From assembly GCA_021846965.1 (NCBI GenBank), contig JAJZWA010000020.1, positions 1-57,125 of the forward strand: 57,125 bases of DNA. Direction: 5' to 3'. Below, in pieces: positions 38,795-47,323 of this stretch (the first letter of the stretch is position 1; each line of letters starts with the position of its first letter). The DNA is from Pseudomonadota bacterium. Its GTDB lineage: Bacteria; Pseudomonadota; Gammaproteobacteria; Burkholderiales; Burkholderiaceae_C. Under the pieces are notes generated by a model that was given only the letters and a program-made list of their open reading frames with translations, made no database searches and was not told the DNA's origin. Made by a program: the position numbers and the translations under genes.

Positions 38795-39709
38795 ATGAAC
38801 CTCAAGCAACTCGAATATTTCGTGCGCGTCGCCGAGGTGGGCAGTTTCAGCAAGGCGGCGGTCCTGCTGGACATCGCCCAGCCGGCGCTGAGCCGTCAGG
38901 TTCGCCTGCTGGAGACCGACCTGCGCGCGGTGTTGCTGCAGCGCACCGGGCGAGGCGTCGTGCTCACCGAGGCGGGCAAGCGCCTGTTCGAGCATGCGGC
39001 GGGCATCCTGCAGCTCGTCGCGCAGGCCCGCGAGGACCTGGAGGCGGGGCGCGACGAACCGACGGGGCGGATCATCATCGGCCTGCCCCCGAGCATGGGG
39101 CGGGTGCTCACGCTGCCCCTGGTGCAGGGCTTCGAGTCGAGGCTGCCGAAGGCTCGCCTGGCGATCGTGGAAGGCCTGTCGGCCCACATCACGGAGTGGA
39201 TCTCCACCGGGCGCGTGGACATCGGCCTGGTACTGAACCCGCAGAGCCAGGAGGCCATCGAGGTGCGCCCGGTGTTCGAACAGGAGCTGTGCCTGGTCAG
39301 CCCCGCGGGAACGGGCGAACCCGAGCATGAGGTGCCCTTCACCAGCCTGGGTTCGTATCCCCTGGTGATTCCCGAACGCACCCATGCGATTCGCCGAATG
39401 ATCGAGAATCAGGCGGCCCTCTCCCACATCAAGCTGCAGATTGCCTGGGAAGTCTCCGGTGTGCAGTCCATCCTGGACCTGGTGCGCTGCGGCCACGGCC
39501 ATGCCGTGCTGGCACGCGGGGCGGTGCTGGCCAGCGGCCAGCGCGAGGCCTTCCGCGTGCGGGCGCTGACCCAGCCCAGCCTGTACAGCCGGCTGTTCCT
39601 GGCCACCTCCGCGAGCAAGCCCAGCACGCCGCTGCTGCGTCACGCCGTGGATCTGTTGCTGCAACTGGCGCGCGAGCATGCGCGGGCGGCCGACCATATC
39701 AATTCGTGA
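38795..39709 (+). CDS. LysR-family regulator of the protocatechuate 4,5-cleavage cluster
   Basis: A 304-aa LysR regulator with an N-terminal winged helix (FVRVAEVGSFSKAAVLLDIA then QPALSRQVRLLETDL) and an effector-binding domain (about 92-295). It stands immediately upstream of and codirectional with ligJ. Its stop codon (39707-39709) lies inside a LysR-type operator that also occurs before the channel/ABC operon at 47.3 kb. It is therefore the probable activator of both, with a pathway intermediate as effector. The evidence is positional and by motif; the name LigR or PmdR is not asserted. Confidence 0.87.
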   Translation: MNLKQLEYFVRVAEVGSFSKAAVLLDIAQPALSRQVRLLETDLRAVLLQRTGRGVVLTEAGKRLFEHAAGILQLVAQAREDLEAGRDEPTGRIIIGLPPSMGRVLTLPLVQGFESRLPKARLAIVEGLSAHITEWISTGRVDIGLVLNPQSQEAIEVRPVFEQELCLVSPAGTGEPEHEVPFTSLGSYPLVIPERTHAIRRMIENQAALSHIKLQIAWEVSGVQSILDLVRCGHGHAVLARGAVLASGQREAFRVRALTQPSLYSRLFLATSASKPSTPLLRHAVDLLLQLAREHARAADHINS

Positions 39710-39726
39710 TAGCTGCTAGCGCGGCG
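39695..39726. promoter_or_regulatory. LysR-type operator of the lig operon
   Basis: CATATC, 4 bp, then a 22-bp block containing GATAGCTGCTAGCGC. The core TATC-N7-GATA (39697-39711) fits the LysR T-N11-A rule. It is centred about 65 bp before the presumed start of transcription, the usual place for a LysR activator. The second copy is at 47256-47287, matching at 6/6 and 19/22 positions of the two blocks. Confidence 0.75.
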
Positions 39727-39733
39727 GGCAGCC

Positions 39734-39762
39734 TTGGCCGGGGCAGGGGGGCTTGCCATAAT
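39734..39762 (+). promoter_or_regulatory. Sigma-70 promoter of the lig operon
   Basis: TTGGCC (39734-39739) and CATAAT (39757-39762) are separated by 17 bp, upstream of ligJ. The -35 box is poor and the -10 good, as expected for an activator-dependent promoter. CATAAT begins 62 bp after the start of the operator block, exactly as at the channel promoter. Confidence 0.7.
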
Positions 39763-39828
39763 CAGCGCCGACTCAGGCTGCCATGAGCATCGGCCCTGCG
39801 CGCCGAGCCATTTCCTGGAGACCTCCGC

Positions 39829-40854
39829 ATGATCATCGACTGTCACGGCCACTACACCACCGCGCCGAAGGCGCTGGAGCAATGGCGCAAGGCGCAGATC
39901 GACAACCTCGCCACGCCCGAGCTCGGCCCCAAGGTGGCCGACCTGCGCATCAGCGACGACGAGTTGCGCGAAAGCATCGAGAACAACCAGCTGCGACTGA
40001 TGCGCGAGCGCGGCAGCGACCTCACCATCTTCTCTCCGCGCGCCAGTTTCATGGCGCACCACATCGGCGACTTCCATACCAGCTCCACCTGGGCAGGTAT
40101 CTGCAACGAACTCTGCCACCGCGTTTCCCAGCTGTTTCCCGAGCACTTCATCGGCGCCGCCATGCTGCCGCAGTCCCCGGGCGTGGATCCGCGCAGCTGC
40201 ATTCCCGAACTCGAGCGCTGCGTGCGGGACTACGGCTTCGTGGGCATCAACCTCAACCCCGATCCCTCGGGCGGGCACTGGAAGGAGCCGCCCCTGACCG
40301 ATCGCTGGTGGTACCCCATCTATGAAAAGATGGTGGAGTACGACATCCCCGCCATGGTGCACGTCAGCACCAGCTGCAACGCCTGTTTCCACACCACCGG
40401 CGCGCACTACCTGAACGCCGACACCACGGCCTTCATGCAATGCCTCACCGGGGATCTGTTCAAGGATTTCCCGACCCTGAAATTCGTGATTCCCCACGGC
40501 GGCGGCGCGGTTCCCTACCACTGGGGGCGCTTCCGCGGGCTGGCGCAGGAGCTGAAAAAGCCGGTGCTGCAGGAGCACTTGCTGGGCAACATCTTCTTCG
40601 ATACCTGCGTGTACCACCAGCCGGGCATCGACCTGCTGACCCGCGTGATCCCGGTGGACAACATCCTGTTCGCCTCCGAGATGATCGGGGCCGTGCGCGG
40701 CATCGATCCGCTGACGGGACACCACTACGACGACACCCGGCGCTACATCGAGGTCGCGGCCATCGACCCGGGGCAGCGCGCGAAGATCTACGAACACAAC
40801 GCGCGGCGCGTGTACCCGCGCCTGGATGCGGCGCTCAAGGCGCGCGGACTCTGA
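39829..40854 (+). CDS. ligJ: 4-Oxalomesaconate hydratase
   Basis: A 341-aa amidohydrolase-fold enzyme of the LigJ type. It opens with the metal-binding [16 protein letters not shown] (H6, H8), and keeps the family blocks [49 protein letters not shown] and [16 protein letters not shown]. It adds water to 4-oxalomesaconate to give 4-carboxy-4-hydroxy-2-oxoadipate, the substrate of the next gene's product. It is the first gene of the lig operon. A GGAG element 8-9 nt upstream supports the ATG at 39829; an out-of-frame ATG at 39783 is not the start. Confidence 0.93.
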
Positions 40855-45717: not shown

Positions 45718-47107
45718 GCCGGCACCGGGCCATCCACTCGCGCAGGCGTGGGAGCACGCGCAGGCCCTGCTGACGCAGCAGCAGCAGGCCGGCCGCGCCC
45801 AGCAGCCCCCCGGCCAGGGCGATGACGTGGATGGCCTGGTTGCCGAACAGCGCGCGGCTCAGCGGGCCGATCACCAGTCCGAACAGGATCTGCGGCACCG
45901 TGATCGTGATGTTGAAAATGCCCAGGCAGGCGCCCATTTTCGCGCGCGGAACCTCGGCCGAGACGATGGCATAGGGAAGCGCCCCCAGGCTTCCGGAGAA
46001 CAGGCCGAGCCCGATCATGGCCACGTACACGCTGCGCATATCGTGCAGGAAGGGCATCGCCAGCAGGGTCGCGGCGCCGGCGAGCAGCGACATCGCGTGC
46101 ACCCGGTTGGGGTCGAAGCGCTCGGCCAGGCTCGGCAGGGCCAGGGTGTAGAGCACGCCGACGAACTGGTAGAGGGCGAAGCAGATGCCCGCCTGGATCA
46201 CCCCGTTGGTCAGCAGGGCCTGATGCTCCGCGCTGGCGGACACGTCGGCACCCGGGGGCAGGCCGTAGATGCGTTGCGCCAGGGCCAGGCCGAAATAGAT
46301 CCAGACGCAGAAGAAACCAGCCCAGGTCAGCATTTGCACCAGGAACAGGCGCCGGATCACCGGCGGAGTCTGCCGCAGGTTCCCGTACAGCTCGCGGACG
46401 AGCAAGGTGCCGAAGGCGCGCCATGCGAAGCGCGTACCCGGGGTGGCCGCGCGAGCCCGATCCTTGTGCCGGATTTCACGGCCCATCGACGAGACGGTCT
46501 GAAACAGGAGCAGGGCGCCCAGCACCAGCGAGACCTTCAGGACCACCGGAATCCTGAAGGGGGATTCGCTGGGCGGGACGAATACCCGCGTGGAATGCAG
46601 CAGCCAGGGGATGGCTCCCGCCAGCATCGCGCCCAGCGAGCCGAATACCGCCTGCCAGGCGAAAGCCTGGGACTTCTGGCGGTTGGGGGTGATGTCGCCG
46701 ATCAGCGAGCGCAGGCCTTCGGTGGAGCAATTGATGCTGCAACTCATGCACAGCATCATGGCCGTGGTCAGCCACAGCGCCTCGGAGAAGGACATCGCCA
46801 GCATGCTCAGGCAGCTCAGCACCGCCCCCGCGTAGATGTAGGGCATGCGCTTGCCGTAGCGCGTGTCCAGCAGGTCGCTGGCCTGCCCCAGCACGGGTTG
46901 CACGATCAGGCCGGCCAGCGGCGGGATCAGCCACAGCCAGCCCAATTGCGGATCCGATGCGCCGAGGAACTTGAACAGTCCGCTGGCGTTGTTCAGCTCG
47001 AAGGTGCCGGCCGCCTGCAAACCCAGGTTCGCCAGCGACAGATAGCCGAGCTGCCGATAGCTCAGCAGTGATTGCGGATTTCCCACGTCGTGCAGGCCTC
47101 CGTCCAT
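45557..47107 (-). CDS. MFS transporter, SLC45/GPH-like
   Basis: A 516-aa protein with twelve hydrophobic segments. The first part (LSLANLGLQAAGTFELNNAS, then GLIVQPVLGQASDLLDTRYG and KRMPYIYAGA) matches SLC45/sucrose-type MFS carriers. It may import a sugar or, from its location, an aromatic acid or intermediate; the substrate is not readable. The ATG at 47107 is chosen; the frame is open to 47251 without transporter sequence. The first stop is at 45557, so about 53 C-terminal Arg/Pro-rich codons lie antisense to ligC; the natural C-terminus may be shorter in function. It is convergent with the lig operon. Confidence 0.8.
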   Translation of the reverse strand: MDGGLHDVGNPQSLLSYRQLGYLSLANLGLQAAGTFELNNASGLFKFLGASDPQLGWLWLIPPLAGLIVQPVLGQASDLLDTRYGKRMPYIYAGAVLSCLSMLAMSFSEALWLTTAMMLCMSCSINCSTEGLRSLIGDITPNRQKSQAFAWQAVFGSLGAMLAGAIPWLLHSTRVFVPPSESPFRIPVVLKVSLVLGALLLFQTVSSMGREIRHKDRARAATPGTRFAWRAFGTLLVRELYGNLRQTPPVIRRLFLVQMLTWAGFFCVWIYFGLALAQRIYGLPPGADVSASAEHQALLTNGVIQAGICFALYQFVGVLYTLALPSLAERFDPNRVHAMSLLAGAATLLAMPFLHDMRSVYVAMIGLGLFSGSLGALPYAIVSAEVPRAKMGACLGIFNITITVPQILFGLVIGPLSRALFGNQAIHVIALAGGLLGAAGLLLLRQQGLRVLPRLREWMARCRLKPGRPAGVPDDPARDSTAAPGPRWIRVRVPRGWRRRTRDPAIRCHSSKRPPC

Positions 47108-47255
47108 GCAACCCGGGTTTTCGGAAATTCCAGGCCGGAATTCGCATCCTACGCAGGACGGCAAGACAGTGGACGGCCGAGGGCCAATGCGCGCAGGCTG
47201 CCCACCCGCAGGGCGAGCACGCCAGGCGCTTCGACGCCGGATCCGGGACAACCCT

Positions 47256-47287
47256 CATATCGAAACGCGATAACTGCTAGCGCAGCG
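47256..47287. promoter_or_regulatory. LysR-type operator of the channel/ABC operon
   Basis: The second copy of the lig operator: CATATC, 4 bp, then a block containing GATAACTGCTAGCGC. The core is TATC-N7-GATA (47258-47272). It lies between the divergent MFS transporter and channel genes and may control both. Confidence 0.75.
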
Positions 47288-47294
47288 AACCCTC

Positions 47295-47323
47295 TACGAC
47301 AAGACGGGGCGCACCAACATAAT
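47295..47323 (+). promoter_or_regulatory. Promoter of the channel/ABC importer operon
   Basis: CATAAT (47318-47323) lies 62 bp after the start of the operator block, exactly as in the lig promoter. The -35 position 17 bp upstream is TACGAC, a poor match, which fits a promoter that needs the LysR activator. Confidence 0.6.

Follow-up and report, generated by a model that had tools for sequence, protein, structure and literature searches.

Operator copies at the lig locus

The window analysed here is a 57,125-nucleotide stretch of contig JAJZWA010000020.1 (assembly GCA_021846965.1), which belongs to a Thiomonas genome of 3.66 Mb in 124 contigs (94% complete). It holds a gene for a LysR-type regulator, followed by a lig operon for the degradation of protocatechuate, an acid derived from lignin, through 4,5-cleavage and, farther downstream, by genes for an outer-membrane channel and an ATP-binding cassette (ABC) importer of the HAAT type (Table 1). 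Each of these two gene groups is preceded by a copy of the same 32-bp element, a predicted operator, which is the subject of this study.

The first-pass annotation, made from the sequence alone, had placed two copies of a LysR-type operator with identical geometry at these promoters, and counting by eye bears this out. CATATC occurs at 39695–39700 and at 47256–47261; 4 bp farther on, each hexamer is followed by a 22-bp block (39705–39726 and 47266–47287), and the two blocks are identical in 19 of 22 positions. CATAAT, at 39757–39762 and 47318–47323, begins at an offset of 62 from the start of the element in either copy. Copy 1 also includes the stop codon of the LysR gene (39707–39709), as had been noted, and copy 2 lies between divergent flanking genes, one for a major facilitator superfamily (MFS) carrier on the minus strand and the channel gene on the plus strand.

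A resemblance of this kind is not reached in shuffled sequence. With 56 NANAAT places in the window to choose from, the highest agreement between two 32-base stretches at the fixed offset is 26 of 32 positions, whereas the best pairs in 40 first-order Markov resamples of the window reached only 17 to 21. When the host genome was searched with a 28-bp pattern allowing up to three mismatches, these two places were the only matches, and the backwards control gave none. A looser pattern with up to two mismatches matched 19 times (23 in the control), with zero mismatches only in the two copies. Further copies scoring above 14 bits were not found when the window was scanned with a position weight matrix (PWM). 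Bases 39695–39720 of copy 1 are invariant across five aligned sequences; three relatives outside that alignment (L037, L038 and L040) vary at a few positions. In the Thiomonas group (L035–L041) the operator doubles as coding sequence for the last residues of the regulator, HINS (HIKS in L040).

The regulator has a winged helix (PF00126, 76.7 bits) and a LysR substrate domain (PF03466, 117.5 bits), and is 97% and 96% identical to its counterparts in Thiomonas sp. clean350 (L035) and Thiomonas sp. FB-6 (L036), respectively. An assignment as PcaQ was rejected, as the NCBIfam model TIGR02424 scores 95.2 bits against a cut-off of 303.8.

Table 1. Predicted features of the regulator, lig and importer region (window coordinates)
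Feature	Position	Strand	Basis or remark
LysR-type regulator (LigR/PmdR-like), 304 aa	38795..39709	+	Pfam HTH_1 and LysR_substrate
Operator copy 1	39695..39726	+	overlaps 3' end and stop of LysR gene; 44.2 bits, PWM trained on relatives
T-N11-A box of copy 1, AT-N2-C-N5-G-N2-AT	39696..39710	+	logo columns, 75 sites
lig promoter (predicted), TTGGCC-N17-CATAAT	39734..39762	+	sole promoter-like match in 39600–39860
LigJ-like 4-oxalomesaconate hydratase, first operon gene	39829..40854	+	Amidohydro_2; specific function inferred from operon context
LigK aldolase	40871..41563	+	TIGR02798, 395.9 bits (cut-off 304.5)
NAD-binding protein with DUF1932	41569..42528	+	PF03446, PF09130
LigI-like 2-pyrone-4,6-dicarboxylate hydrolase	42533..43495	+	Amidohydro_2; specific function inferred from operon context
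LigA, protocatechuate 4,5-dioxygenase alpha subunit	43485..43898	+	PF07746
LigB	43895..44758	+	PF02900; NF009903, 576 bits (cut-off 317)
LigC-like dehydrogenase	44755..45717	+	GFO_IDH_MocA and OxRdtase_C
Operator copy 2	47256..47287	+	ahead of channel gene; PWM 36.5 bits; kept in L036 and L037
T-N11-A box of copy 2	47257..47271	+	logo columns and alignment of relatives
Channel/importer promoter (predicted), ACGACA-N16-CATAAT	47296..47323	+	sole promoter-like match in 47100–47420, on the channel strand
Outer-membrane channel, Phenol_MetA_deg family	47394..48398	+	PF13557, E 2.5e-46
Substrate-binding protein of HAAT-type ABC importer	48430..49749	+	PF13458
Two ABC ATPases	49697–50503; about 50500–51228	+	best NCBIfam models LivG, LivF, both below cut-off
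Two branched-chain-type permeases	about 51243–52160; 52157–53209	+	PF02653 for each
MarR-type regulator	53294–53785		neighbourhood of importer
VanA_C Rieske oxygenase	53817–54950		downstream of importer
GntR-type regulator	55000–55683		between Rieske oxygenase and reductase genes
Reductase	55702–56673		near VanA_C Rieske oxygenase

Conservation in relatives

For comparison we took the best 80 loci from named genomes among the regulator matches listed, on pieces with no more than 10 kb on either flank. A Lig match of at least 50% identity is present on the piece in 71 of the 80 loci, and the nine without one lie partly on short contigs. The lig match nearest to the regulator is in tandem downstream in 37 of these 71 loci, divergent in 32 and otherwise placed in two. 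The element itself lies next to relatives of the regulator whose neighbours are lig/pmd genes for the 4,5-cleavage of protocatechuate, in betaproteobacteria and in some alphaproteobacteria.

Training of the PWM used the sequence immediately 3' of the regulator; the six starting seeds included copy 2, which was absent from the final training sites. A site above 9 bits follows the LysR gene directly in 33 of 41 loci (L035–L075), although the 9.8-bit site of L043 is a probable false positive. The reversed-sequence control, scanned over 1.354 Mb, gave five matches above 12 bits with a maximum of 15.9. In the loci outside the training (L076–L114), a site above 16 bits lies within 160 bp ahead of the LysR gene in 22 of 39, compared with 0 of 39 in the reversed control.

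Copy 2 has counterparts ahead of the channel gene in Thiomonas sp. FB-6 (39.2 bits), whose cluster is the same, and in ZJ1.bin49 (L037, 32.1 bits). In both, the nearly invariant operator, the CCCTCTACGACAAG block and CAACATAAT stand out of diverged surroundings. In a third relative of the same genus (G158), the channel and MFS genes are absent from the locus, LigC and the same importer are adjacent, and a 31.1-bit site lies between the two; it differs in sequence (CATGCCGGAATG...) from the copies of the window and has the same role. Copy 2 is thus conserved in all three relatives that show the place, L035 ending before it. In T. delicata (L041/G032) no channel match was obtained at 1e-40 and the strict pattern described below matched only once. 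Channel homologues (39–47%) in four other genomes had no site above 10 bits in the flanks examined.

Architecture of the operator and its promoters

A logo was built from 75 distinct sites above 20 bits, numbered with the C of CATATC as 0. The most constant letters are A1 (75 of 75), T2 (75), C5 (73), G11 (68), A14 (71) and T15 (75), continued downstream by A16 (74), C18 (75), T19 (67), T22 (71), A23 (71) and G24 (68). It is important to note that the columns of the site itself belonged to the PWM and were favoured by the choice of sites, whereas the −35 and −10 columns lie outside the scan matrix. There, TTGG appears around positions 38–41 of the 75 sites, and NANAAT starts 61 positions after the C of CAT in 41 sites, 62 in seven and 60 in four.

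These columns revise the core that had been proposed from the two copies alone. The palindrome TATC-N7-GATA is indeed present; its symmetric pairs, however, are not T and A at a distance of 11, and it sits one base off the true centre. We rejected it as the operator core because the second T, at position 4, varies (A 31, C 28, G 4, T 12 of 75), whereas A1, T2, C5, G11, A14 and T15 are nearly constant. The symmetric part is AT-N2-C-N5-G-N2-AT in an exact T-N11-A frame (T2/A14), and about one helical turn farther downstream lies another conserved part, ATAGCT-N2-TAG. A T-N11-A repeat near −65, as is characteristic of LysR-type sites, is found with T in 75 and A in 71 of the 75 sites, counted on PWM-chosen sites and relative to predicted starts. 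At the channel/importer promoter, the block CCCTCTACGACAAG, which contains the −35 element, is invariant in three sequences. In both promoter regions of the window, the single match from the promoter scan includes the CATAAT that the first-pass annotation had given as the −10 box.

The recognition helix of the regulator, AQPALSRQVR, is nearly constant among 60 regulators with sites, as would be expected if the helix reads the invariant outer bases of the operator. A search for coupling of helix residues to the variable inner dinucleotide of the box gave none, the helix itself hardly varying.

Genome-wide occurrence of the operator

A strict form of the pattern, drawn from the named loci, was scanned in 299 genomes sampled from the family. 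It occurs at 60 places in 49 of the genomes, while the backwards control gave three places in three genomes. A match to the regulator at E 1e-60 or better, in some cases perhaps a paralogue, was obtained in 156 of the sampled genomes, and each of the 49 belongs to this group (hypergeometric P 1.9e-16). No more than 800 bp separate the pattern from the regulator gene at 36 of the 60 places. The 24 others (the regulator's place not being located for G092 and G151) precede transporter genes in 15 cases, lig genes in seven, and a tannase/feruloyl esterase gene and an unrelated gene in one case each.

The transporters are of several kinds. HAAT importers stand behind the strict pattern in G000 (there behind the channel), G158, G017, G259, G056, G267, G091, G193, G296 and G212, TRAP genes in G009, G137, G143 and G227, and a PcaK-like MFS gene in G070, whose best model is PcaK with 523.6 bits, below the cut-off of 770. 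The lig genes are those of G173, G092, G259, G005, G248, G151 and G059, in the last with LigJ 0.8 kb on. The tannase/feruloyl esterase gene of G164 (L185:485-2146; PF07519, 353.5 bits) lies far from the regulator and raises the possibility that enzymes releasing aromatic acids also belong to the regulon. A DUF4347 protein behind the pattern in G210 has no evident link.

The named loci give a similar picture. Sites precede TRAP genes beside the regulator in L047, L050, L055 and L058 (by Pfam in L047 and L050), HAAT binding proteins in L043, L046 and L093, and TctC/Bug binding proteins in L088 and L095; MFS genes follow in L066 (PcaK-like, 503 bits, below cut-off) and L051 (another MFS). A paralogue may account for the weaker sites (17 to 28 bits) that Hydrogenophaga-like loci show ahead of TRAP genes. 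The importer of the window was also considered as an ortholog of the HAAT importers behind the operator in L043, L172 and L187; its binding protein matches theirs at best with 33% identity over 104 residues (E 3e-6), and orthology was therefore rejected.

Other genes were seen behind the operator as well. In G143 and G227, of one genus (L175 and L177), a gene resembling cobalamin-independent methionine synthase lies between the operator and the TRAP genes (PF01717 in L177). L045 (2434-4515, PF02775) and L055 (from 1928) have a thiamine pyrophosphate-dependent enzyme at 32.0 bits each, which by eye resembles 2-oxoacid:ferredoxin oxidoreductases. A small protein starting approximately with GISSMATR...ESVGGVDAA is often the first behind the operator (L042, L044, L045, L047–L051, L055, L058 and many divergent loci); its copy in L087 (9207-9905) is SBP_bac_11.

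A probable common regulon for degradation and uptake

Since the same site stands before degradation and uptake genes, both in the window and in relatives, joint switching by one regulator is very probable. Comparative genomics thus backs the original proposal of one LysR-type operator common to the lig and the channel/importer promoters, with its core near −65 of the predicted starts. The operator, the promoter geometry, the link to the regulator across genomes and the repeated position ahead of transporters are read directly from the sequences. From these we infer that the product of 38795–39709 is a LigR/PmdR-type regulator that binds the operator and activates, rather than represses, the lig and the channel/importer operons together, a reading to which we assign a probability of roughly 87%.

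Several points weigh against it. The channel/importer promoter has a poor −35 element, and both transcription starts are predicted. Among the 156 regulator-match genomes, 107 are without the strict pattern; they may hold paralogues or diverged operators. Some named loci represent sampled organisms (L041 is G032), so that, for places next to the regulator, neither test is independent of the other. Eight of the 41 loci have no site above 9 bits in the stretch searched: in L044 (44.3 bits), L057 (23.6), L061 (16.1) and L073 (14.9, below the best control) one lies farther off, and in L059, L065, L067 and L069 the PWM scan found none above 14 bits. Likewise, 17 of the 39 loci outside the training miss the 16-bit mark. 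The known regulators LigR and GalR were compared by published description, and the published LigR consensus, TT-N-GC-N6-TTAT in the accessible text (PMC12710314), fits in part only. By eye, copy 1 has five and copy 2 six of the eight letters of its reverse complement, ATAA-N6-GC-N-AA; the form CATAACAAAACGCGAT of several Sulfuritalea-type loci has seven.

Two other explanations of the shared element compete with this reading. MarR and GntR families control aromatic pathways, and both are represented in the neighbourhood, the MarR gene adjoining the importer in G158 too; the operator could thus belong to the MarR-type (53294–53785) or the GntR-type (55000–55683) protein, which would then co-ordinate uptake and degradation. 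We consider this very unlikely, as the operator tracks the LysR gene, in its proximity at 36 of 60 places and in its restriction to regulator-match genomes (49 of 49), while a relative above 60 bits was found in none (MarR) and four (GntR) of the 80 loci, within the 10 kb or less covered on each flank, and a T-N11-A box near −65 is LysR-type geometry. Even less credible is a recent copying of one promoter from the other that left the second operator without a regulatory role. The two promoters do lie in one cluster and are alike in sequence. They differ, however, outside the operator and the −10 box, the second site is kept while its surroundings diverge, and G158 has a site of different sequence in the same role.

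A third possibility leaves the regulon intact and refines the preferred reading: the importer might carry an organic acid or another substrate linked to the pathway (vanillate, 4-hydroxybenzoate, gallate), and induction might be due to 4-oxalomesaconate or gallate instead of protocatechuate. We place it a little short of even odds. The binding protein of the importer matches solved relatives weakly (4ey3, which we take to be an aromatic-acid binding protein, at E 8.9e-8), a VanA_C Rieske oxygenase and a reductase are encoded just downstream, and elsewhere one site precedes the tannase/feruloyl esterase gene. Moreover, GalR responds to 4-oxalomesaconate according to the available text (PMC9942251), and the first lig gene encodes the presumed hydratase for this compound. 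On the other hand, HAAT importers for protocatechuate exist, as PcaMNVWX illustrates in the text accessible (PMC4495286).

Under joint activation by the LigR/PmdR-type protein, the regulator would sit as a tetramer, the usual form of LysR-type regulators, on the operator of about 25 bp, AT-N2-C-N5-G-N2-AT-AGCT-N2-TAG, centred near −65 of two predicted sigma-70 promoters. One would serve the lig operon for protocatechuate degradation through 4,5-cleavage, the other the operon of the channel and the HAAT ABC importer for uptake. A compound of the pathway would bind the regulator. This could be protocatechuate itself; the example of GalR would instead point to 4-oxalomesaconate, on which the first lig enzyme acts if it is the presumed hydratase. 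The effector-bound tetramer would then shift and contact RNA polymerase at −35, in keeping with the general LysR picture of an effector-driven shift toward the polymerase, and both operons would be activated.

From a broader perspective, the operator of one LigR/PmdR-type regulator probably defines a protocatechuate regulon in Burkholderiales, Rhodocyclales and some alphaproteobacteria. Its degradation operon would be constant and its uptake system interchangeable, with non-homologous importers (HAAT ABC with or without MetA-type channel, TRAP, Bug/TctC, PcaK-like MFS) sharing one operator, in many cases at a distance from the gene of the regulator. The surprising part is the recurrence of unrelated importers, which suggests a freer exchange of importers than of the pathway supplied by them. 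The resemblance of two promoters thereby becomes a testable regulon of one regulator and two operons, with an operator searchable in any genome. If this holds true, an operator in front could suggest substrates for uncharacterised TRAP, HAAT and Bug importers, and help to assign them to orphan importers and upstream enzymes. Thiomonas is a genus of mainly sulfur- and arsenic-oxidising bacteria, for which the regulon predicts inducible growth on lignin-derived acids; a literature search for Thiomonas with protocatechuate returned no paper with either word in its title or abstract.

Neighbouring genes

The importer is of the HAAT type by composition, with a Peripla_BP_6 binding protein, two LivGF-like ATPases and two BPD_transp_2 permeases. 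The MFS carrier had been considered a possible further member of the regulon. The operator does sit between the divergent MFS and channel genes and may have a role there; membership is nevertheless not supported. The carrier is present in L036, but none was found at the corresponding position of L037 and G158; NCBIfam gave no model match for it at 1e-20, and the lone promoter-like match between the two genes faces the channel. About 160 bases at the 3' end of ligC are also part of the minus-strand MFS frame (45557–47107). The MFS match of L036 shows no such overlap with LigC; in the window, the C-terminus of the carrier is possibly a misreading or has been altered.

Many relatives, though not all, share with the window a gene for the NAD-binding protein with DUF1932 inside the lig operon. 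A 4-oxalomesaconate tautomerase gene was not seen in the lig operon of the window (39829–45717); in T. delicata a tautomerase gene stands directly behind the operator (L041:11037-12164; NF033377, 526 bits, cut-off 440). Downstream of the importer, the Rieske oxygenase and reductase genes, with the MarR gene before and the GntR gene between them, resemble a vanillate-type O-demethylase feeding the pathway.

Comparison with known systems

The defined operator, and the non-homologous importers behind it in different lineages, look new. A literature search that misses most subscription journals yielded no description of this operator in Betaproteobacteria, and LigR, pmd and PcaQ do not occur in the accessible text of a comparative study of aromatic regulons in this group (PMC6449761). 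That a LysR regulator unites degradation and uptake is already known from GalR with GalT and GalP, and from PcaQ with PcaMNVWX.

As far as the published descriptions were available, three systems come close. LigR of Novosphingobium aromaticivorans and Sphingobium SYK-6 activates its targets from footprints at −51 to −83 and −56 to −85 (PMC12710314). As in the window, a LysR-type regulator is encoded beside 4,5-cleavage genes and has two sites, its footprints agree with the position of our element, and the conserved letters of its sites overlap a T-N11-A (PMC12710314). In contrast to the arrangement described here, both reported LigR targets are operons with degradation genes flanking ligR, and the word "transporter" is absent from the main text as available (PMC12710314). 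GalR of Pseudomonas putida, whose effector is 4-oxalomesaconate and not gallate, is likewise a LysR activator of two promoters with a predicted T-N11-A box; its promoters cover the 4-oxalomesaconate branch (galBCD) and uptake through galT (MFS) and galP (porin) (PMC9942251). It differs in serving gallate, in using an MFS carrier and a porin instead of a HAAT importer and a MetA-type channel, and in that galB is divergent from galR (PMC9942251). Finally, PcaQ of Sinorhizobium and Rhizobium, a LysR regulator, controls the HAAT-type protocatechuate importer PcaMNVWX together with degradation genes, as proposed for the regulator of the window, but serves the beta-ketoadipate (3,4-cleavage) pathway (PMC4495286).

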